DNA of 41,717 nt from the IMG/VR virus record IMGVR_UViG_3300033571_019808, positions 1 to 41,717 of that record. One strand, given 5' to 3'. The DNA is from a virus. The position numbers and the translations under genes were made by a program. Below the pieces are notes generated by a model. That model did no database searches and was not told where the DNA came from. It saw only the letters and a program-made list of their open reading frames with translations. Of this stretch, positions 8,213 through 41,717 are shown piece after piece (the first letter of the stretch is position 1; each line of letters opens with the position of its first letter).

Positions 8213-8956
8213 ATGACCAATTCTTGGCTTAGTGCATCATTATTTGTTGGAGGCTTCTCTAATTTAAAAATTCAAGTTACTTCCAACACGCAAACCACAA
8301 TCACGGTTGATAGTATTGTGCTTAAGTCAAGTGATCGTGCCTATGTTGCTAACAATGTTAGTTTAACAAATACAATTACAACTTCTGGCGTGAATGGTTT
8401 AGATACTGGTTCAGAGGCATCAAGCACATGGTATAATGTTTGGATAATTTATGACGGCACAACAGTTGCAAGCTTATTATCTCTTTCAGCAACCGCGCCG
8501 ACTATGCCAAGTGGCTATACTTATAAAGCTAGGATTGGCGCAGTTCGCAATGATGGCTCTTCAAATCTTTGGCGCACTCTTCAATATAATCAAGACGTTG
8601 ATATTATTGTCGGCACTAATCCTGCCACAATCCTTAAAATGGCAAATGGCACAACTTCCAACACTTCTGTTCCAGTTGATGCTGTAAGTGTTTCAAATTT
8701 TGTGCCACCTACCGCGGCGAGAATTAGAGGTTATATGATGGCAAGAGCTGGTAGAGCTGGCGCTGCTCCGAATAATGCTTATGGCGCATATGGATTATCA
8801 AACGCCCCTCCTGTTTCTGTTTTTTCAATTGGCACAGACACCGCCTCTAGCAACACTTTTGATTTTGCATTGGAAAGCACTAATATTTACTGGTTCTGTA
8901 GCCCAGCTGATGATGGTGGCTATATAGTAGCGACTGGCTGGAGGGATAAATTATGA
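8213..8956 (+). CDS. Putative tail fibre / tail tip protein
   Basis: 247 aa. The segment GLDTGSEASSTWYNVWIIYD near residues 63-82, followed by SLSATAPTMPSGYTYKARIG, is a recurrent pattern in phage and prophage tail proteins of unknown function. The rest is beta-rich with a Gly/Ala segment. It starts 2 bp after the 173-aa gene and overlaps the downstream esterase by 4 bp (ATGA), suggesting that adhesin and enzyme are made in a fixed ratio. Confidence 0.65.
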   Translation: MTNSWLSASLFVGGFSNLKIQVTSNTQTTITVDSIVLKSSDRAYVANNVSLTNTITTSGVNGLDTGSEASSTWYNVWIIYDGTTVASLLSLSATAPTMPSGYTYKARIGAVRNDGSSNLWRTLQYNQDVDIIVGTNPATILKMANGTTSNTSVPVDAVSVSNFVPPTAARIRGYMMARAGRAGAAPNNAYGAYGLSNAPPVSVFSIGTDTASSNTFDFALESTNIYWFCSPADDGGYIVATGWRDKL

Positions 8957-9714
8957 GAACAGGTTATGATATTTACTTGATGGCTGGTCAATCAAACATG
9001 GTCGGACAAGGCGTTTCTGCCGATGGCTTGTTAGATTTTAACGATCCAAGAGTTTTTCAATTTGGCGGCGCTGCAAAAGATCCTCGTTATAGAACTATTT
9101 TTTTAGGTAATGATCCAGCGCACCATGAAGAGGGTGTTAATAATAAAAAAGTAAGCCCAATTTTTCCTTTTGGTCGCGCGATGGCTTTAAAAACTGCTTG
9201 TAGCAGAAGAATCTTATTAGTGCCAGTTGCACACAGCGGCACGGCTTTAGTTAATAGCCTTTGGGGTGTTGGTGGCAAACTTTATGAAAATGCAATAACT
9301 CAAGCTAATTTAGCTATTCAAGCAGCCAAAGCAGAATTTATTGACAGCGACTTTAAAGGCATTGTTTGGCTTCAAGGTGAACAAGATTTTAACGCTGCTC
9401 AAGATGTTTACGCGAAAGCTCTTGATGATATGGTTAAAGGTTTTAGATCAAGGATTGCTGGGGCAGAAAAAGCCCCGTTTGTTGTTTTGCAAATGCTTCC
9501 TGCTTGGATTGCTAAAACTAATGGCAATGTTGACAGAGCGCACCAAGACACGCCAAATAGATTAGAATATAGCGCTTTCGTGCCAGCTCCACTTGATAAG
9601 AAATATGGCAATTCAGACAATATTCACTTTAGCGCCGCTGGCTCAAGAATTATTGGGAGAAATGCGGCAATGGCTTTTGATAGAGCAATAAACAATGTAT
9701 TTACACAGGCATGA
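8953..9714 (+). CDS. SGNH/SASA-family carbohydrate esterase
   Basis: 253 aa. It shows the SASA (CE6/sialate O-acetylesterase-like) SGNH signature. Block I is MAGQSNM with Ser14 as predicted nucleophile, the WLQGEQD block is at residues 139-145, and DNIHFS at 222-227 supplies the Asp222-His225 pair. Its predicted reaction is removal of O-acetyl or similar ester groups from a polysaccharide. There is no signal peptide, so secretion is not expected. Set among fibre genes, it is best read as a virion-borne enzyme that trims capsule or O-antigen during attachment. A good SD (GGAGGG) lies upstream and the start overlaps the fibre gene by 4 bp. Substrate unknown. Confidence 0.85.
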   Translation: MRTGYDIYLMAGQSNMVGQGVSADGLLDFNDPRVFQFGGAAKDPRYRTIFLGNDPAHHEEGVNNKKVSPIFPFGRAMALKTACSRRILLVPVAHSGTALVNSLWGVGGKLYENAITQANLAIQAAKAEFIDSDFKGIVWLQGEQDFNAAQDVYAKALDDMVKGFRSRIAGAEKAPFVVLQMLPAWIAKTNGNVDRAHQDTPNRLEYSAFVPAPLDKKYGNSDNIHFSAAGSRIIGRNAAMAFDRAINNVFTQA

Positions 9715-14440: not shown

Positions 14441-15406
14441 TTACATATATTTATACTGGATCCATGTTGGCAAATCTTCCCATCCTAAAATTTCAATATC
14501 ACCTTCTCCCTCTCTTTTGTAATCATCTTCCCACCTTTCAGCGCCATATTTTTCAATATTGGTTTTATATATATCTAATCCCCTGCGAAATAGATGCTCT
14601 GCGCTTTCAATAACATCTTCGCGAAACATCTTTAGCCTCACCATCAAATCCTCTTTTTCTTGAAAAGCAAAAACAAATTTGCTAGATGGAATTTTTATTA
14701 ACTCTTTAACAAACGCTTCTTGCTGAGTATTGGCGTCATGGCATTTGGGATTTTGTTTAAAGATTCTCAAGCCCTCCATATAATAAGCGGCTTGGATATA
14801 ATAATCATAATCTCCAATTTGATTTTTAATCTTTGTTATATTTTCAAGGCTTTTATAATCCGCAATATATACCAAGGCAAGCCAATCCATACGACACTTA
14901 CACATTAAGCCTGTTTCTGCATCGCGCCAGAAAATGGAAACTTCCATAAATCCGTCTTGAAATAAAGCTCCAGCCGTTGGTAATGATTCAAAATAATCAA
15001 CCCTCTCTTTAATTTCAGCAAAATCTTCTTCTGAAATTTTTATTTTACTTCCAATATATTCAAAAGTTTTTGCATCCTTGGTTTTTCGCAGTGAAAAGTT
15101 TTGATTAAAATCTGTTTTTTGGCTTTCCAGCTTATAAAAATCAGAATCAATATCTAATTTTGGCAAAACTACATAATCGCGATAAAACCGCTCTTTCTCC
15201 ATCAGGTAGCAGTGTAAAGCATTACCCATCTTCATAGAGGGGGTTTGTTTATATTCGCGCTTAGGATTTAAGGGCGAATTTCTCCAATATTTCATTGGAG
15301 AAATTAATAAGTTTTTTATGTTACTATTGGAAATTGCGGGGTCATTGTGATAATCTTCGTTTGAAAGATTAAAATAGATACCTTCTGATAATCCTTTTGG
15401 TTGCAT
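14441..15406 (-). CDS. RecE-like PD-(D/E)XK exonuclease
   Basis: 321 aa. It shows the PDDEXK/RecE-type motif order: ISNSNIKNLLISPMKYW near residue 25, GNALHCYLME (His65), the CRMDWLA segment (Asp174), IADYKS (Asp183, Lys185), and QAAYYMEG (Gln205, Tyr209). These are the metal-binding and catalytic positions of phage 5'-3' double-strand exonucleases (DUF3799 family). It starts at the stop of the RecT/Bet gene (1-base overlap), as expected for a resection and annealing pair. The product would chew 5' ends so that the partner protein can load on 3' overhangs. Confidence 0.85.
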   Translation of the reverse strand: MQPKGLSEGIYFNLSNEDYHNDPAISNSNIKNLLISPMKYWRNSPLNPKREYKQTPSMKMGNALHCYLMEKERFYRDYVVLPKLDIDSDFYKLESQKTDFNQNFSLRKTKDAKTFEYIGSKIKISEEDFAEIKERVDYFESLPTAGALFQDGFMEVSIFWRDAETGLMCKCRMDWLALVYIADYKSLENITKIKNQIGDYDYYIQAAYYMEGLRIFKQNPKCHDANTQQEAFVKELIKIPSSKFVFAFQEKEDLMVRLKMFREDVIESAEHLFRRGLDIYKTNIEKYGAERWEDDYKREGEGDIEILGWEDLPTWIQYKYM

Positions 15407-16407
15407 TATTTCAAAACCTCCAATCTTCTTTTTTCAATAGCCCTAATATTCTCAAATAAAGTTGGTGCGTTTTTGTGCAGAATTGCCATGTTATTCGCGT
15501 GGTTTTCCATGTTGCGCTTAATGCCATGAAGAGTAGTTATTGTCTCTAAATCTGTTTTAATTTGTTCGTAAATAGCTTCCTCCCTAGAGGTATCCAGTTG
15601 TTCGGGATTTCCGAATGACTGCTCTTGGTCAATAAAAGGAGGGTTCACGGCACTAGCATCACTATCAATTAATTCCGCCTCTTGCACCTGTGGTTGTGAT
15701 TTTAATTCAGAAACATTAAACGACCTTTCTAAAGCTGGCGGAACTGCGTGAGCTTGAGCGGTTTTAGATTTTGGAGTAATATTTAACATTCCCTCATTCG
15801 CATCAAAAGTTTCTTCCCCAATGTAATCGTTACCAACCTCTTCAGGAAAAGCCATACGCAACGCAGCAGCTTCACAGCACTTTTCTAATTGAGCATAATT
15901 TCTTTTAGCCCACATAGCATTTGGTGCGGCAGTATCATTTTTTTGCGTTTTATATTCCTGCTTCCAAAATAACTTTGCCGTGAAAGATCTTGGCTCGCCT
16001 TGAACTAATCTAAATACAGTTACCCTACACCATTTCGGATAAGTAACCTCAATGCCACCTAGATTTTCAGTAACTTCATCACCAAATTCCGCCTCACTTC
16101 TTCCAGCATATTGACCAGTTCTTGTAGCCGTAATTCTAACCTCAGAAATTGACGGCCAGATAGTATCTTTCATGGCCTTGAGTTTATTATCCCAAATAGG
16201 AACGATTTGGATTGTGCGCTTCATTATGTCAAGTTTACGAGCGCGGCAATAATCTATCGCCATTAAAAGTGTTTCGTCTTTCTGAACATTTGGGTAAAGG
16301 ATTTCTTTAATTACCCTGAAATCTTCAAGCTTAATTTCGCGCTTATCTAGTGAAGCTTGTAAGCCCACTGGTTTTTGATTTGTTATTTCTGTTGATTGAG
16401 TTTGCAT
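15406..16407 (-). CDS. RecT/Bet single-strand annealing protein
   Basis: 333 aa. The core at residues ~30-200 has the Bet/RecT signature: RARKLDIMKRTIQIVPIW; WPSISEVRITATRTGQYAG; W..RNYAQLEKCCEAAALRMAFPEEVGNDY. A variable Gln/Ser-rich linker and a short helical C-terminus follow. It promotes annealing of complementary single strands after exonuclease resection and overlaps that exonuclease gene by one base. The operon is transcribed leftward, apparently from the promoter in the AT-rich gap at 16723-16890. Confidence 0.9.
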   Translation of the reverse strand: MQTQSTEITNQKPVGLQASLDKREIKLEDFRVIKEILYPNVQKDETLLMAIDYCRARKLDIMKRTIQIVPIWDNKLKAMKDTIWPSISEVRITATRTGQYAGRSEAEFGDEVTENLGGIEVTYPKWCRVTVFRLVQGEPRSFTAKLFWKQEYKTQKNDTAAPNAMWAKRNYAQLEKCCEAAALRMAFPEEVGNDYIGEETFDANEGMLNITPKSKTAQAHAVPPALERSFNVSELKSQPQVQEAELIDSDASAVNPPFIDQEQSFGNPEQLDTSREEAIYEQIKTDLETITTLHGIKRNMENHANNMAILHKNAPTLFENIRAIEKRRLEVLK

Positions 16408-16428: not shown

Positions 16429-16722
16429 TTAAATTAAATTTAAAAAATAATCGCTTTGGATTTTTCTAAATCCTTCCGCTTCAATTTCACATTGCTTTTT
16501 GTGGTATCTATACTCAGTTTCAATTCTTTCTTCAATTTTATCTATTTCAGCTTGGCATACTTCTTGTAAAATCTCTGATTCATCACCAATACAATATGTT
16601 TGCGTGATTTGTTCTGGCTCTTTATCCACTTCACAATAAAAATTAATTGCGTCTTGAATGACCAATTCGAGAGTTTCATTTTCAAAGCAATTGCGCTTTG
16701 TTTCGATAATCCAATCTGACAT
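16429..16722 (-). CDS. Hypothetical acidic protein
   Basis: 97 aa, strongly acidic (Glu-rich), helical, with four Cys. First gene of the recombination operon, directly downstream of the operator-like repeat array. Its charge and position would suit a small regulator or inhibitor of a host DNA enzyme, but nothing in the sequence proves this. Confidence 0.55.
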   Translation of the reverse strand: MSDWIIETKRNCFENETLELVIQDAINFYCEVDKEPEQITQTYCIGDESEILQEVCQAEIDKIEERIETEYRYHKKQCEIEAEGFRKIQSDYFLNLI

Positions 16723-16749
16723 AAATAGTTATTTAAATTTTTAACTTTT

Positions 16750-16885
16750 TATTTTGTTAATAAATTAACTAAATGACTTTGAATATAGTTAATTATTTAG
16801 TTTGTTAGTTCTTTAATTAACTATATTTATAACTATAAAACTAACTAACTAAATTTATAATAAATAATATAAAATATAAAGTCAA
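16750..16885 (-). promoter_or_regulatory. Leftward promoter with TTAACTA/TAGTTAA operator array
   Basis: On the - strand, TTGACT (16880-16885) and TATTAT (16857-16862) are separated by 17 bases, a good sigma-70 promoter facing the recT operon. Downstream of the -10 lie many copies of TTAACTA or its complement TAGTTAA and variants (16765-16771, 16786-16792, 16797-16810, 16817-16823, 16840-16852) in both orientations. Related promoter and repeats occur upstream of the par genes, so a common repressor, perhaps one of the RHH proteins, is likely. Confidence 0.6.
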
Positions 16886-16903
16886 ATAAAAATATTAAAT
16901 ATT

Positions 16904-17188
16904 TTATTTATTTTTTTTCTCACCTTTTTTAACGCGATTTTTGATATATGCAAAGGCATCATCTTGCATAGTTGTCCCTTCCGTAGCGCAGATTATTTTA
17001 TATTTTTGGTGAAGGGTGGGGGACATTTTAATTGCTAAAGTTTTTTGCAAAGCCAACCCTTCGTCACTTTCTTTTTCCAAAACTTCCTTTGTTTCTTCTA
17101 TTTTTTGCGGCTCAATAGGCTCAACTTTATTAGTTGAAACTGGAACCTTAAAAGCTGGTCTATTTTCAAAAGGATTAGGTTTATCCAT
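16904..17188 (-). CDS. ParB/ParG-like ribbon-helix-helix partner of ParA
   Basis: 94 aa. The N-terminal ~50 residues are flexible, Pro/Glu-rich (FENRPAFKVPVSTNKVEPIE). The C-terminal part (TLAIKMSPTLHQKYKIICAT, then TTMQDDAFAYIKNRVK) reads as beta-strand, helix, turn, helix, i.e. a ribbon-helix-helix DNA-binding domain. The layout of floppy N-terminus plus RHH, and the 8-bp overlap with the upstream ParA gene, match small centromere-binding proteins of type Ib partition loci. It would bind the plasmid centromere and stimulate the ParA ATPase through its N-terminal tail. The AT-rich repeats next to it are possible binding sites. Confidence 0.7.
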   Translation of the reverse strand: MDKPNPFENRPAFKVPVSTNKVEPIEPQKIEETKEVLEKESDEGLALQKTLAIKMSPTLHQKYKIICATEGTTMQDDAFAYIKNRVKKGEKKNK

Positions 17189-17993
17189 GAGTCACCCCCA
17201 TTAATGTTTTTGCCACTTTCATATATTCTTGAGCCGCATGACTATCGGGAGCGAAATTAAATATATCGGAAACTTTGTCGCGAGCTTTTTCTAAGCTAGT
17301 GTCTTTTCTGATCTGGGTTTCAAGCACATTATTTGGATAGCTTTTTTCTAGCTTTAAAAAATTGTTTCTGTGGCTCTCGTGAGATGCGGAAAATTGTGTT
17401 ACTAAAATATTGCAAGATTTAGGCATTACGTCCAAGTCTTGCTTTAAAGAAGAGATTGATTTAAACAAGAACTCAATACCCTTTTGCGAATCTTTGTCAG
17501 CTCGGACGCAAGTAACTAGTTCATTATCATTGCTCGAGCATAAAACATTGACCACAAGCAGCCCCAAGTTTGGCGGACAATCAATTAGAATAACATCATA
17601 ATCACCCTCGGCCTCAACTTTGTTTAAAATTCTGTTCTTAAACATAAATTCTCTACCAGTCTTTGCTGCCAACTCTAATTCAGCCCATGAAAGATTTTCA
17701 CCAGAAGGAAGAACGTCAAACTTAACTTTATTATTCTCATAAACCATCACAAAATCTTTCCAGTTTAAACTTGGATTGATAAGCAAATTGTAAATGGTTT
17801 TGTCATCTGGCAAACCATACTCATCAACCTCTGGAAATAGGCCGCAGGTTGCGTTAGCTTGTGGGTCTAAGTCAATCAAAAGAACTTTGTAGCCCAATAG
17901 AGAGAAAGCTGCCGATAGGGCTTTCGCTGTGGTGGTTTTCGATACACCGCCTTTTTGATTAACTATCGAAAATATTTTTGCTTTTTTTTTCAT
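17181..17993 (-). CDS. parA: ParA partition ATPase
   Basis: 270 aa. Deviant Walker A KGGVSKTTT (residues 14-22; Ser18 replaces the usual Gly), the A' motif LLIDLDPQANAT near 38-49, and Walker B VILIDCPP at 134-141. There is no N-terminal HTH, so it is of the Soj/type Ib kind and its operon is probably regulated by the RHH partners rather than by ParA itself. It would form nucleoid-associated gradients that move plasmid copies apart. It is flanked by two RHH genes, with a 1-bp gap upstream and an 8-bp overlap downstream. In a phage without an integrase this points to a plasmid prophage. Confidence 0.9.
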   Translation of the reverse strand: MKKKAKIFSIVNQKGGVSKTTTAKALSAAFSLLGYKVLLIDLDPQANATCGLFPEVDEYGLPDDKTIYNLLINPSLNWKDFVMVYENNKVKFDVLPSGENLSWAELELAAKTGREFMFKNRILNKVEAEGDYDVILIDCPPNLGLLVVNVLCSSNDNELVTCVRADKDSQKGIEFLFKSISSLKQDLDVMPKSCNILVTQFSASHESHRNNFLKLEKSYPNNVLETQIRKDTSLEKARDKVSDIFNFAPDSHAAQEYMKVAKTLMGVTHG

Positions 17994-17994
17994 A

Positions 17995-18168
17995 TTATTT
18001 TTTTGTTAATTCTGATGCTTTTTCTAAAAGATCTTGATCTTTAGTTGCTTCTGTTAAAACATTTTCAGCGAGCTTGATAAGACTGATATTTTTTTGAGCA
18101 GCATACACTTTAAGAGTTGCATGTGCGTCAGATGGAATTTTAAGACCTAAAGATTTATTTTCTTTCAT
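17995..18168 (-). CDS. Small ribbon-helix-helix protein upstream of ParA
   Basis: 57 aa. MKENKSLGLKIPSDAHATLK, then VYAAQKNISLIKLAENVL and a charged tail. It reads as beta-strand (SLGLKIP) plus two helices, an RHH/CopG-like fold. It is the first gene of the par operon, 1 bp before parA and right after the promoter and repeats at 18175-18230, the usual place for an autorepressor. It could also be a second centromere binder. The sequence is diverged from the 94-aa RHH protein downstream of parA. Confidence 0.65.
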   Translation of the reverse strand: MKENKSLGLKIPSDAHATLKVYAAQKNISLIKLAENVLTEATKDQDLLEKASELTKK

Positions 18169-18235
18169 AGTTATTTAGTTAATTAGTTTTATTAGAAATA
18201 AAATAAATAATATAAAAATAATTAAGTCAACATCT
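18169..18235 (-). promoter_or_regulatory. par operon promoter and operator repeats
   Basis: On the - strand TTGACT (18225-18230) is followed at 17 bases by a weaker -10 (TTTATT, 18202-18207). TTTAGTTAATTAGTTTTATT repeats (18175-18195) lie between it and the 57-aa RHH gene. The core ATAAATAATATAAAA next to AGTCAA is shared with the promoter at 16857-16885. This argues for joint control of partition and recombination genes. Confidence 0.55.
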
Positions 18236-18278
18236 TTTTTTCAACCATTAAAGAAATTTGAACAGTTGGATTTTTTCG

Positions 18279-18511
18279 ATAGGTATAGCGAAAGGTATAG
18301 GATTGGTAGGCACTATACCTATTCTTATATGATCACTCCCTACATATCTCTTATGTAGGGAGCTAATAATCTGCTTTTGATATTTGCAGATTGTGAAAAT
18401 ATCCACAAAGTAAGGATAAATTGGGATAATTATTTTATCAGCAGACTCAATAAATTCACGGCTTTGCGAGGTTATTAGGGATAAAATATTAGTCTTAATG
18501 GGATAAATATT
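18279..18511. other. Repeat-dense gene-free region, candidate origin/centromere/operator
   Basis: No convincing gene lies in 18169-18581. Seen: ATAGGTATAG (18279-18288) with its exact inverse (18313-18322) and a further AGGTATAG (18293-18300); an 11-bp perfect palindrome CTCCCTACATA / TATGTAGGGAG (18336-18362, 5-base centre); a 7-bp dyad AATCTGC / GCAGATT (18368-18392); a DnaA-box-like ATATCCACA (18399-18407, one mismatch to TTATCCACA); and four GGATAA copies (near 18414, 18424, 18479, 18501). Such clustering between divergent operons is typical of plasmid or phage origins, centromeres or immunity operators. Which of these it is cannot be told from sequence alone. Confidence 0.55.
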
Positions 18512-18522
18512 TAACAAACCCC

Positions 18523-18552
18523 TTGACTTTATAAAACGGTTTTGGTTTTATA
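18523..18552 (+). promoter_or_regulatory. Rightward early promoter with embedded operator
   Basis: TTGACT (18523-18528) and TTTTAT (18546-18551), 17-base spacing, face the small-gene operon starting at 18582. The inverted repeat TATAAAAC / GTTTTATA (18530-18552, 7-base centre) lies between and over the core elements. A repressor bound there would block polymerase. An AGGAGG follows at 18552-18557 but is too far from the ATG at 18582 to be its SD. Confidence 0.65.
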
Positions 18553-18581
18553 GGAGGAAAAGCAAATTAACAATTAAATTC

Positions 18582-21703: not shown

Positions 21704-21821
21704 CTTCACTCTTAAATTTATCGCACTTAGCACAGCGCAACTTATCATCTATATCAAAGCCCCAGTTGTGCCAGCAAAGTATTTGATTCAGTGTTGATAA
21801 AAATATCTTTATTTTTTTCAT
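21690..21821 (-). CDS. Small zinc-ribbon protein overlapping the glycosyltransferase gene
   Basis: 43 aa: MKKIKIFLSTLNQILCWHNW, then GFDIDDKLRCAKCDKF and SEVRSH. C16, H18, C30, C33 give a C-x-H-x11-C-x2-C ribbon, very like small ribbon proteins in phages. It starts inside the 3' end of the glycosyltransferase gene (68-bp overlap, another frame) and its last 14 bp are antisense to the XRE gene. The SD is weak. The cysteine pattern makes chance unlikely, but it might also be the shifted tail of a longer ancestral protein. Confidence 0.5.
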   Translation of the reverse strand: MKKIKIFLSTLNQILCWHNWGFDIDDKLRCAKCDKFKSEVRSH

Positions 21822-22671
21822 TTAATTTTTTCTTAAAAATAGTAATTCCAAAAAACTTATATTTTAAAGAATTGCCTTTAATTACCTTTCCAAAAATTAC
21901 TGGTTTAAGATACAATTTTTCTAAACTTCCTGCGACTTTATCAACGTGATTTAAAATCGGAATAATAAACTCATCATTTGAAAAAAGCTCAAATTTATAC
22001 AAATTAGGCACATTTTTTGAATTGCGAATCAATAAATCTTTTTTAATAAGGTGTGAGCCGCTTTTTAAAAGCTCTAAATAATGATTGATTGCGGGATTGC
22101 TTTTGAACTTTTTTTGACATAGAGCATCATATTTATAACCCAATTCTGTTAAAAGCTTCGTCAGTCCAACTTCATATTTCTCAATAATATCATCTTTGCT
22201 CTCTTGCTTAGAAACCATATTCATAAAGAAAAATAAATCTTTAAATGTAGTCTTGGAAAAACAAAGAAAATAGCTTTGTAAATGGTAATCAAACTTATCT
22301 TTGCCAATGCTAATTCCCCAAAAATCAACTGGATTTCTTTTTTCCATTTCAGCAAAAATGGTGGTTAATGGTGAGAGTAAATAGCAAGAATCATTAGCTA
22401 AGACTATTTGATCATAATTGTCGACATTTAGCCTTTCTTTTGCCGCCGCTAATCCCCTTTTCCAACTACCAAAATCATATTCTCCATGCTTAGCAGCAAT
22501 TTTGATGATGCAAATTTCGCTTAATTTTCTTAATTCTACTTCTGGCAAATTACAATCAGATACAAAAATCACATCGCTTGAAACTTGCCTTAAGGCTTTT
22601 AGATAGAGAATTACATAATCGTCTATGATATTATCTTTGTCGTAGTGTGCGAATATGGAAACTCTTTTCAT
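21754..22671 (-). CDS. RgpF-type rhamnan glycosyltransferase
   Basis: 305 aa. Matches the rhamnan synthesis F (RgpF) pattern: SIFAHYDKDNIIDDYVILYL at the start, YDFGSWKRGL near residues 65-74, YDQIVLANDSCY at ~85-96, and DFWGISIGKDKFDYHLQSYF at ~116-135. The C-terminal ~60 residues with KYKFFGITIFKKK resemble segments found in host cell-surface glycosyltransferases. The predicted role is adding rhamnose-like sugars to a surface polysaccharide, which in a prophage could alter the receptor and exclude other phages. It overlaps the replication-protein gene by 4 bp (ATGA), so it is not a loose cargo gene. No membrane anchor. Confidence 0.8.
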   Translation of the reverse strand: MKRVSIFAHYDKDNIIDDYVILYLKALRQVSSDVIFVSDCNLPEVELRKLSEICIIKIAAKHGEYDFGSWKRGLAAAKERLNVDNYDQIVLANDSCYLLSPLTTIFAEMEKRNPVDFWGISIGKDKFDYHLQSYFLCFSKTTFKDLFFFMNMVSKQESKDDIIEKYEVGLTKLLTELGYKYDALCQKKFKSNPAINHYLELLKSGSHLIKKDLLIRNSKNVPNLYKFELFSNDEFIIPILNHVDKVAGSLEKLYLKPVIFGKVIKGNSLKYKFFGITIFKKKLNEKNKDIFINTESNTLLAQLGL

Positions 22672-23531
22672 TTTACCTCGATTTTTACGTTAATTGTTTT
22701 TAGTTTCTCTTGATACTCTAAAGCCTTCTTATCTGTCACAAAGATCTTGTAGCTAGATCCGTCTTTTTCTAGTGCAGCAAGATCAAAATATTTTTGATAC
22801 TCCATGCCGCCCAAAAATAAACGCTTGATCTGGTAGCGGAGGTTTTGAATTTCTTTTGATTCAACTATCAAACTTTCCTTTACAGTTGGGTTTTTTTCTA
22901 AAAATCCATTTTCCCACCATGCGATATCAGCCTCTAAATTTTTAACTCCTGACCAATTGCTTTTCTCACGAAATAGGAAATATTTTTCATGGCTGGATTT
23001 TAATTTCTTTTCTAGCCAGATTGATTTTAATTTCTCTTTTTTCGATTCCGCAGGAAGAGAGAAAAATAGTTTAATATCTGGCTTAATATCTGTTCCTTTT
23101 ATATTTCCCGATTCCGAGATTTCGATTTCTTCATTTCGAGATTTGGAAATCCCGATTTCAGGATTTGCATTTCCCGAATCCGAGAAATGAGCAATAATAA
23201 GGCTTGCGGCTAAAAATTTATCTTCATCAAAAAAGGCATACCAAACTGTGCGATCATATTTTGTAGGATTGAAATTCCCTTTTATAATAATTTTTTTCTC
23301 AACCATTCTGGCGACAGTTCTCTCTATTGCGCCTTTTTTCCAGTAAGGAAATAACTTCTGAAAAGCTTCGTTAGAGTTGTAAGTCCAGGTTCTAAAAACG
23401 CCATCCTCCGCAGCGTAATAGTGTTTTTTATTTGCCTTATTTTTAATAATCCAAAATCGCAAGTTCCAAATCATTATAGCCTCTTCTAAGCCATAATTAA
23501 CCGCCTCCTGAACATCAAAACTATGTTGCAT
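22668..23531 (-). CDS. Phage replication organizer-like protein (winged-helix N-terminus)
   Basis: 287 aa. Residues 1-100 (EEAIMIWNLRFWIIKNKANK, HYYAAEDGVFRTWTYNSNEA, FPYWKKGAIERTVARMVEKK, then VWYAFF) have the winged-helix pattern of phage replisome organizer/O-like proteins. A Ser/Glu/Ile-rich linker at ~118-150 consists of imperfect repeats (EISESGN and variants). The C-terminal ~130 residues are helical and may recruit the host helicase. No helicase or polymerase is encoded, so the phage would depend on the host replisome. One-base overlap with the HTH gene upstream, 4 bp with the glycosyltransferase downstream. Confidence 0.65.
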   Translation of the reverse strand: MQHSFDVQEAVNYGLEEAIMIWNLRFWIIKNKANKKHYYAAEDGVFRTWTYNSNEAFQKLFPYWKKGAIERTVARMVEKKIIIKGNFNPTKYDRTVWYAFFDEDKFLAASLIIAHFSDSGNANPEIGISKSRNEEIEISESGNIKGTDIKPDIKLFFSLPAESKKEKLKSIWLEKKLKSSHEKYFLFREKSNWSGVKNLEADIAWWENGFLEKNPTVKESLIVESKEIQNLRYQIKRLFLGGMEYQKYFDLAALEKDGSSYKIFVTDKKALEYQEKLKTINVKIEVK

Positions 23532-23955: not shown

Positions 23956-24579
23956 TTATCCCTTTATCTCTGGCTGTTGCAAAGCAAATTTAGCGATTTC
24001 TAAAACTGGATTTTTCCATTTCTTCCACCAATCTAAAGCTAGCGAGTGCATGGCGGCAATTTCTTCATCATTGAAATTTTGCCATTTTTCTAAAGTGTGT
24101 CGTTGATAGCTAATCGCTATTTGATTCCCAAAAGTTATGCTCCAAATTTCAGAAGTTATACTAACTACTTTTTTTGTAATATTTTCATTGCCCCAGATTT
24201 CCGCATTGCCCGAGATTTCCGCATCGCCCGAGATTTTCGCATTGCCCCAGATTTTCGCATTGCCCCAGATTTCCGCATTGCCCGAGATTTTCGCATTGCC
24301 CGAGATTTCCGCATCGCCCCAGATTTTCGCATTGCCCGAGATTTCCGCATCGCCCGAGATTTTCGCATTGCCCGAGATTTTCGCATTGCCCGAGATTTTC
24401 GCATTGCCCGAGATCCACGCATTATCATAAAGACTTAAATTTTCCTCTTTTTCTATATAGCCACCCATTTCTCCAGCTTCAACATTACCAAAAGATTTAA
24501 GCGCCTTGATTCTAAAAAGTGTTCTGCCCAAAAAATTGATTTTTGTTTCTTGGGTCAATTCGTATTTTTTATTTGTCAT
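23956..24579 (-). CDS. Hexapeptide-repeat (left-handed beta-helix) phage protein
   Basis: 207 aa. Residues 1-50 (ELTQETKINFLGRTLFRIKA, KSFGNVEAGEMGGYIEKEEN) form the conserved head of a family found in many temperate phages and bacteria. Residues 51-134 are ~14 hexapeptides of the type S/W-G-N/D-A-K/E-I, which should coil into a left-handed beta-helix. The C-terminal ~70 residues (ISYQRHTLEKWQNFNDEEIA) are a separate helical domain. No catalytic motif of acetyltransferases is evident. The function of this family is unknown to me. The repeat unit is 18 bp, so copy number should vary by slippage. Confidence 0.75.
   Translation of the reverse strand: MTNKKYELTQETKINFLGRTLFRIKALKSFGNVEAGEMGGYIEKEENLSLYDNAWISGNAKISGNAKISGNAKISGDAEISGNAKIWGDAEISGNAKISGNAEIWGNAKIWGNAKISGDAEISGNAEIWGNENITKKVVSITSEIWSITFGNQIAISYQRHTLEKWQNFNDEEIAAMHSLALDWWKKWKNPVLEIAKFALQQPEIKG
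24178..24429 (-). repeat. 18-bp tandem repeat array encoding hexapeptides
   Basis: About 14 units of an 18-bp repeat (+ strand variants of GATTTCCGCATTGCCCGA) with alternating TTTC/TTCC and CCCGA/CCCCA versions. The near-identity at DNA level, beyond protein need, suggests recent expansion or gene conversion. The periodicity keeps several other frames open, which are shadows. Confidence 0.85.
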
Positions 24580-24728: not shown

Positions 24729-24782
24729 AAGTTTTTAATTTTAATTTGTTTCAAGTTGCCCTCACAATTATTATTTAATAAA

Positions 24783-24812
24783 CTTAACTAAACATAACTT
24801 AACTAAACATAA
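24783..24812. repeat. Tandem 15-bp repeat x2 (iteron-like)
   Basis: CTTAACTAAACATAA occurs twice head to tail. It lies in the 205-bp AT-rich gap (24729-24933) just downstream of the 224-aa candidate initiator gene. A TTATCAACA (DnaA-box-like on the - strand) is near 24870. Possible iterons of a replication origin; only two units, so weak. Confidence 0.45.
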
Positions 24813-24933
24813 CGGACTTCCAGCAAAATTTGGGGGTTGTTCTGGCTGTAGGTCTGTCTCATTTTGGGGCTGTTGATAAAATTGTTAATAAAAAATGATA
24901 ACTTTTTGCTAACGCAAAAAAGAGAGAGATTTT

Positions 24934-28136: not shown

Positions 28137-28334
28137 ATGTCTAGTTTAAAAAGTTATATTGTAGAAAAGTGGCCAGAGCGGTTTAAAAAAACTGGTCTGA
28201 GTCAAAAGCAATTTGCTGCTTATAGTAAGGTATCTAGACCCGCTATTAGTGAAATACTAAGTGGACAAAGAAAGAGCGTACATCAAGTGACTATTGATAG
28301 AATAGAAAAGGCGTTTAAAGAACTTGGAGTATAA
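28137..28334 (+). CDS. Small XRE-type HTH regulator
   Basis: 65 aa. Residues ~17-58 (KTGLSQKQFAAYSKVSRPAI, SEILSGQRKSVHQVTIDRIE) form a single Cro-like HTH, with no dimerisation or peptidase domain. Divergent from the leftward operon, it is a candidate Cro/repressor for the promoter at 27930. The plausible -35/-10 upstream is TTGCAA with GATAAT at 16 bases. Four-base gap to the secreted Cys-rich protein gene. Confidence 0.75.
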   Translation: MSSLKSYIVEKWPERFKKTGLSQKQFAAYSKVSRPAISEILSGQRKSVHQVTIDRIEKAFKELGV

Positions 28335-41514: not shown

Positions 41515-41717
41515 TGGCAATAGCAACTGTTCAATTACCAGACGGCAGAATTGCTGATATTGAAATGCCAAATGGAGCAACGGAAGAAGATTTGCAAGGT
41601 TTCCTTTCTTCGCAATTTGGAGAACAACAACAAGCTGCGCCACAACAAGCGCAAGCCCCTCAGCAAGAATCAGGATTCTTAGAAAAAGCTGGTCAATTCG
41701 CAATGGGATTGCCTCAA
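41514..41717 (+). CDS. Phage ejection protein, 5' part of gene crossing the join
   Basis: True start of the 513-aa protein continued at 1-1425. ATG overlaps the upstream stop (TAATG). It gives MAIATVQLPDGRIADIEMPN, then GATEEDLQGFLSSQFG and a Gln/Ala/Pro-rich linker. The beta-strand opening is common in proteins expelled with phage DNA. The last 87 bases here are the duplicate of window start. Confidence 0.75.
   Translation, partial: MAIATVQLPDGRIADIEMPNGATEEDLQGFLSSQFGEQQQAAPQQAQAPQQESGFLEKAGQFAMGLPQ
41631..41717. repeat. Terminal direct repeat, right copy (circle join)
   Basis: Identical to bases 1-87. See left copy. The length equals a common odd assembly k-mer value, which supports an assembly overlap rather than physical phage ends (inference). 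Confidence 0.95.

Follow-up and report, generated by a model that had tools for sequence, protein, structure and literature searches.

Does a tailed phage that carries partition genes and no integrase persist in its host as a plasmid? The question is raised by positions 16,723 to 18,581 of the window, as we call the whole stretch of DNA analyzed, an entire virus record of 41,717 bp. We consider it fairly probable that this temperate phage is maintained in plasmid form by a type Ib-like partition system, in which a complex of one small DNA-binding protein (RHH2) on two DNA sites would also repress the neighboring recombination operon. The assembly was regarded as closed because its ends carry a direct terminal repeat of 87 bp and a single ORF spans the repeat junction; such a repeat would be seen in a permuted packaged genome no less than in a circle.

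41631..41717, no strand: direct terminal repeat, 87 bp, equal to positions 1-87; closed as assembled

Partition cassette and integrase content of the window

The noted range includes, on either side, an AT-rich stretch between genes (16723-16903 and 18169-18581). Parts of these two stretches form a pair of sites around a ParA gene and two small genes. The same cassette was found in seven other phage genomes (G004, G026, G027, G1123, G1124, G1125, and G1126), which together with the window make up eight cassette phages. The features of this region in the window, all on the minus strand, are as follows.

18169..18240, minus: upstream site, with a TTGACT promoter box, an AT-rich leader, and one operator/centromere-like word, AACTAATTAACTAAAT, at 18173-18188
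17995..18168, minus: RHH1, candidate small RHH-like DNA-binding protein, 57 aa, first cassette gene (Arc-like repressor PHROG, 2.2e-4)
17181..17993, minus: ParA-type Walker ATPase, 270 aa (AAA_31, 2.4e-41; phrog_164 ParA-like partition protein, 1.9e-46)
16904..17188, minus: RHH2, ParG-like candidate centromere-binding protein, 94 aa (Pfam RHH_10, 8e-5)
16723..16903, minus: downstream site, with a second TTGACT promoter box and four word copies (16759, 16783, 16795, 16839); precedes the recT operon
16429..16722, minus: first operon gene, 97 aa, no assigned function; a homologue occupies the equivalent position in G026 (36%)
15406..16407, minus: RecT-family single-strand annealing protein (PF03837, 3.2e-17; phrog_2449, 2.3e-70)
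14441..15406, minus: RecE-like PDDEXK exonuclease of the exonuclease VIII family (DUF3799, 1.7e-21; phrog_412, 1.2e-55); 66% identical in G1124

The original prediction of a ParA flanked by two ribbon-helix-helix (RHH) proteins was borne out, RHH1 being the weaker of the two. Judged by its sequence, the identity of 17181-17993 as ParA is certain; the Walker motif KGGVSKT lies at the N-terminus, with Walker A starting at about residue 13 of 270. RHH2 begins within the end of parA, the two genes sharing 8 bp. In a structure model of RHH2, residues 1-50 were of low confidence or disordered and were followed by two confident C-terminal helices; a fold search with this model gave no match. When RHH2 and its counterparts were combined in a four-sequence profile, ParG (1p94) was the sole PDB match above noise (E 9.5e-4), and this match was weaker with eight sequences (E 0.074). 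RHH2 of G027 weakly matched the Omega repressor (1.3e-4) and ParG (0.009). The N-terminal tails of RHH2, where type Ib proteins have an arginine finger, were too divergent across the cassette phages to align, and Pfam detected no RHH domain in most of the relatives' small cassette proteins. The RHH assignment of RHH1 is weak; its monomer model, a single helix, was uninformative, and positional counterparts were present in the seven other phages.

Type Ib systems have been described as a protein with a disordered tail and an RHH domain encoded downstream of a small ParA (PMC5016525). The window ParA has no N-terminal helix-turn-helix domain, and RHH2 has an RHH domain with a flexible N-terminal tail according to Pfam, the structure model, and the profile, both as in type Ib. 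The best PDB matches of the ParA were other ParA/Soj proteins and not specifically ParF-like. As for the upstream centromere of type Ib systems, built of direct or inverted repeats, the repeat word occurs once upstream of the cassette and four times in the downstream site.

We searched the window for integration enzymes with profile HMMs. PF00589 and PF00239 gave no match in six frames, and when about 70 predicted proteins were compared with Pfam, no integrase, recombinase, resolvase, transposase, or protelomerase came up, in agreement with the predicted absence of integrase, transposase, and protelomerase genes. A WNKNKS motif common to a helix-turn-helix protein of the window and the integrases of relatives was considered as an integrase remnant and rejected, as the 14-residue similarity of this protein to an integrase N-terminus (E 0.016) was within chance. 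PF00589 was also without match in G027, G1123, G1124, G1125, and G1126, leaving six of the eight cassette phages without an integrase. Terminal repeats of 99-127 bp were present in G004, G026, and G027; no terminal repeat was seen in G1124 and G1126, so the absence of integrase is less certain in these two. Short tyrosine recombinases were detected in G004 and G026 (199 and 209 aa) and could integrate the phage or resolve dimers. An integrase in any protein, or chromosome junctions in related genomes, had been named beforehand as evidence against plasmid maintenance; the window yielded none, whereas these two relatives do carry a tyrosine recombinase.

Phage-plasmids are recognized by a complete tailed-phage gene set, a partition system, plasmid-type replication of the prophage, a temperate and episomal state in a host, and typically no integrase (PMC12977533). 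In the window, portal, capsid, and tail homologues were present together with a terminase; ParA, the ParG-like RHH protein, and the repeat sites would constitute the partition system; and no integrase was found. The phage therefore probably persists in its host as a plasmid.

Cassette order and paired sites in eight phages

G026 (49.3 kb) and G027 (33.3 kb) were found through RecT and G004 (35.9 kb) through the portal; G1123 to G1126 were found by searching with the ParA proteins of these three phages. As lone queries against viral contigs, the window ParA and initiator recovered no relatives and RecT recovered two. All eight phages, the window included, share the order RHH1, ParA, RHH2, and then a single-strand-annealing recombinase with an exonuclease. 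In G004, G026, and G027 this appears as a small gene, ParA, a small gene with a long N-terminal tail, and recombination genes, and in G1125 an AAA_24 (Sak4-like) protein replaces RecT. The 8-bp overlap of parA and the small gene was seen in the window and in G1123 to G1125. Identity between the window ParA and those of the other cassette phages was only 22-25%, which counts against the explanation we prefer. Directly upstream of the cassette in G027, on the opposite strand, a large ORF (L241:2891-4705) reads like the N6-methyltransferase subunit of a type I restriction-modification system.

The structural genes of the window are related to those of Myxococcus phage Mx8, and its structural relatives come mostly from alphaproteobacterial assemblies. 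A common capsid set was found in the window, G004, G027, and G1123, and G026, G1124, G1125, and G1126 gave no match to it. Since structural genes differ among the cassette phages, the cassette travels with the replication and recombination module. Only 1 of 25 portal relatives searched (G004) had ParA, and thus the cassette is uncommon in the structural lineage. The locus had been predicted to mark an uncommon plasmid-prophage lineage of podovirus structure with a type Ib-like partition locus. Such a locus on an integrase-less genome of short-tailed type, and its uncommonness, were supported; the tie to a podovirus structural lineage was not, the type Ib-like locus recurring in the seven other phage genomes.

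We then compared the two flanking sites; neither these nor the link to the recT operon had figured in the original prediction. With up to two mismatches, AACTAAYTAACTAAAT gave five matches in the window, all in the two flanking gaps, where 0.34 were expected and 0 of 100 shuffles gave as many. The word of the upstream site occurs in four copies in the downstream site, versus at most two in local shuffles. The longest exact word shared by both sites was 15-17 bp in the window, G004, G026, and G027 (p<=0.01 each, local dinucleotide shuffles), and none of the 12 cross-genome site pairs among these four discovery genomes was significant. The shared words of G026 (TATTAAACTAATATA) and G027 (TTAAATAAAGTTAATTA) occur only at the two sites of their own genome; that of G004 has one extra near-match outside them. 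G1123 to G1126, obtained later, served as an independent check. Exact shared words were not significant in these genomes. Once as many as two mismatches were allowed, the shared words reached significance (p 0.030, 0.005, 0.015, and 0.040), and 0 of 12 cross pairs fell below 0.05 at this setting. Among the 40,320 possible pairings of the eight upstream with the eight downstream sites, the true one ranked first at each of three mismatch levels. Gapped local alignment of the paired sites was noisier, the upstream site of the window matching the downstream site of G004 equally well, and was replaced by these ungapped word tests. A further candidate site at 24781-24813, a perfect 15-bp direct repeat (AACTTAACTAAACAT, 2.2 copies) between replication genes, was only loosely like the operator word and was excluded.

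A TTGAC box was present in the upstream site of all eight phages and in the downstream site of six, and the downstream site precedes the recombination genes in all eight. The sites vary between lineages yet match within each genome, which is the pattern expected of two sites recognized by a single DNA-binding protein. Because the words sit near or after the promoter boxes, and each site overlaps a promoter or follows it closely, a single complex would repress both operons.

Probable plasmid maintenance and its alternatives

Replication and regulatory genes were examined for features that bear on maintenance.

22668..23531, minus: lambda-O-like replication initiator (phrog_11233, 2.7e-27)
23103..23185, minus: iterons, 22 bp x 3.8, inside the initiator gene (Tandem Repeats Finder); candidate lambda-type origin
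28137..28334, plus: Cro/CI-type helix-turn-helix regulator, 65 aa (HTH_3, 7.4e-8), one of two Cro/CI-type regulators in the window; 81% identical in G026

In G026 (22 bp x 4.8) and in G027 (15 bp x 3.5), the initiator gene likewise contains iterons, and the window phage probably replicates by means of this initiator and its intragenic iterons. The closest plasmid match of the initiator, 48.6% over 107 aa, was on pBVIE05, an 88-kb circular Burkholderia plasmid that is phage-like, with a phage repressor, an ERF protein, and an exonuclease.

Taken as a whole, the model is that a temperate tailed phage with an Mx8-type structural set would reside in the lysogen as a low-copy circular plasmid. RHH2, which is ParG-like, possibly together with RHH1, would bind the AT-rich repeats on either side of the cassette and form a partition complex. 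ParA with ATP, and probably the nucleoid, would distribute the copies to daughter cells. In the lysogen, the partition complex would shut down its own operon and also, by way of the second site, the recT-recE operon; this repression would be lifted upon induction of the phage. Replication would begin at the intragenic iterons of the initiator and use the replication enzymes of the host. Beyond this single phage, the cassette may be a portable control module common to phages of unrelated structure. In this module a phage-plasmid's partition complex would double as lysogenic repressor of the recombination operon, one RHH protein would act on two cognate sites at the cassette ends, and each lineage would have altered the site specificity without losing the pairing. 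We put this forward tentatively, with slightly less than even confidence.

Bacterial assemblies, in which the genome had been expected as an extrachromosomal replicon, did not provide one. No cassette neighbored any match in 344 Rickettsiales, 385 alphaproteobacterial, and 398 Pseudomonadota genomes, and no lysogen or plasmid was found there. The phage-plasmid reading is thus supported by the type Ib-like locus and lack of integrase and not by a plasmid copy or lysogen in the bacterial genomes searched; because no cassette-bearing bacterial genome was found, we infer plasmid lysogeny from gene content. Two Rickettsiales genomes contained RecT matches, with no cassette adjoining them. In G205, a genome of this order, two ParA-like genes (L250:17661-18287 and L251:3-587) each lie about 8.5 kb from a RecT of the window's family; these genes do not follow the cassette order and may belong to an integrated relative or to another mobile element.

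Several observations count against plasmid maintenance, namely the tyrosine recombinases of two of the eight phages, the weak RHH1, and the structural relatives of the Mx8 lineage, which have been described as chromosomal prophages (PMC10386132). The location of both sites at promoters, the second one 5' of the recombination genes in eight of eight phages, is also what would be seen if the cassette were mainly a lysis-lysogeny or early-gene switch, with RHH proteins, modulated by ParA, repressing the par and recombination promoters and no plasmid upkeep. Such a phage would integrate with a host or unrecognized recombinase or would be pseudolysogenic; two relatives do have a tyrosine recombinase. 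A simple repressor, however, needs no ParA, six of the eight phages have no recognizable integrase, and ParA with an 8-bp-overlapping small partner is the arrangement on plasmids and on plasmid prophage D6. We therefore regard a mere switch as unlikely.

The short recombinases of G004 and G026 and a structural family known from chromosomal prophages would also suit an integrative temperate phage, whose partition cassette stabilizes a transient circular stage and whose integrase was lost or replaced in the window only. The lack of PF00589 in five other cassette phages as well as of PF00589 and PF00239 in the window, where the one integrase-like similarity was within chance, makes this improbable. 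Least probable is a strictly lytic phage in which the ParA-like gene has a different role, for instance in placing replicating DNA within the cell. No lysogen was found in the bacterial genomes searched, and the TerL relatives of the window include isolated phages of Pelagibacter and Methylophilales, both as this explanation would have it, but two Cro/CI-type regulators, a relative of the initiator on a plasmid that also encodes a phage repressor, centromere-like repeats, and a ParG-like protein all argue against it.

Relation to known systems and further observations

One of the known systems closest to the window is the type Ib partition locus parFGH of TP228. Both have a small ParA without an N-terminal helix-turn-helix, a downstream RHH protein with a flexible N-terminal tail, and AT-rich direct and inverted repeats, and the RHH2 profile of the window matches ParG. 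The window departs from TP228 in that a further RHH gene precedes parA, a second site follows the cassette and holds more repeat copies than the upstream one, and the ParA has 270 aa and is not specifically ParF-like. The ParA subfamily of G027 (25-28% identity) includes proteins of phage-plasmid D6 and of circular plasmids of Megaera, Methylocaldum, and Salinivibrio, each followed by a small gene with an 8-bp overlap. Escherichia phage D6, a P1-like plasmid prophage whose ParA is of this subfamily (25% identity), differs from the window in being a 91-kb P1-like phage that also has StbA-type partition genes and no recT operon directly after the pair. The Sop system of N15, with its scattered centromeres, resembles the window in that its partition sites are reported to lie near phage control genes and its partition protein to affect nearby transcription; N15 differs in being a linear plasmid prophage with type Ia Sop proteins and a protelomerase.

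Phage-plasmids with par genes are already known (PMC4490671; PMC12977533), metagenomic ones since 2015 (PMC4490671). The cryoconite groups likewise come from metagenomes, as circular phage genomes that carry par genes and in some cases an integrase too; they are of ParA/ParB type and, as far as we are aware, are not described as having paired sites or a link to a recombination operon (PMC4490671). What is new is the layout of paired sites that connects partition with recombination: our limited, partial literature search turned up no account of a partition cassette that has matched sites on both sides and is tied to the operon of an annealing protein, and only unrelated papers on RecT with ParA. 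If the model is true, one protein and two DNA sites tie plasmid inheritance to the switch to lytic recombination. The signature of RHH, ParA, RHH, and annealing protein with matching flanking sites would then find uncultured phage-plasmids that marker-based tools may miss, and phages of Mx8-like structure, the known relatives of which have been described as chromosomal prophages, would join the range of plasmid prophages.

Other features of the window were also noted. Shine-Dalgarno-like motifs precede only 12 of 53 genes, a hint that the host uses them little. An RgpF-like (rhamnan synthesis) glycosyltransferase gene (21754-22671, minus; PF05045, 4.4e-23) adjoins the initiator gene and is a possible surface-modifying lysogenic conversion gene, and a SASA-type carbohydrate esterase (8953-9714, plus; PF03629, 4.2e-29) amid the tail-fiber genes is likely a receptor-modifying enzyme. 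An 18-bp unit repeated 12.7 times at 24186-24414, inside the ORF at 23956-24579, encodes hexapeptide/bactofilin-like repeats. Finally, a 21-bp leader, AACAAACAATAACTNAYATGA, is present in four perfect copies (18944, 19213, 20142, and 20333, plus; 0.00 expected by chance), just 5' of small ORFs, and may be a repeated translation or regulatory leader or the trace of gene duplication.
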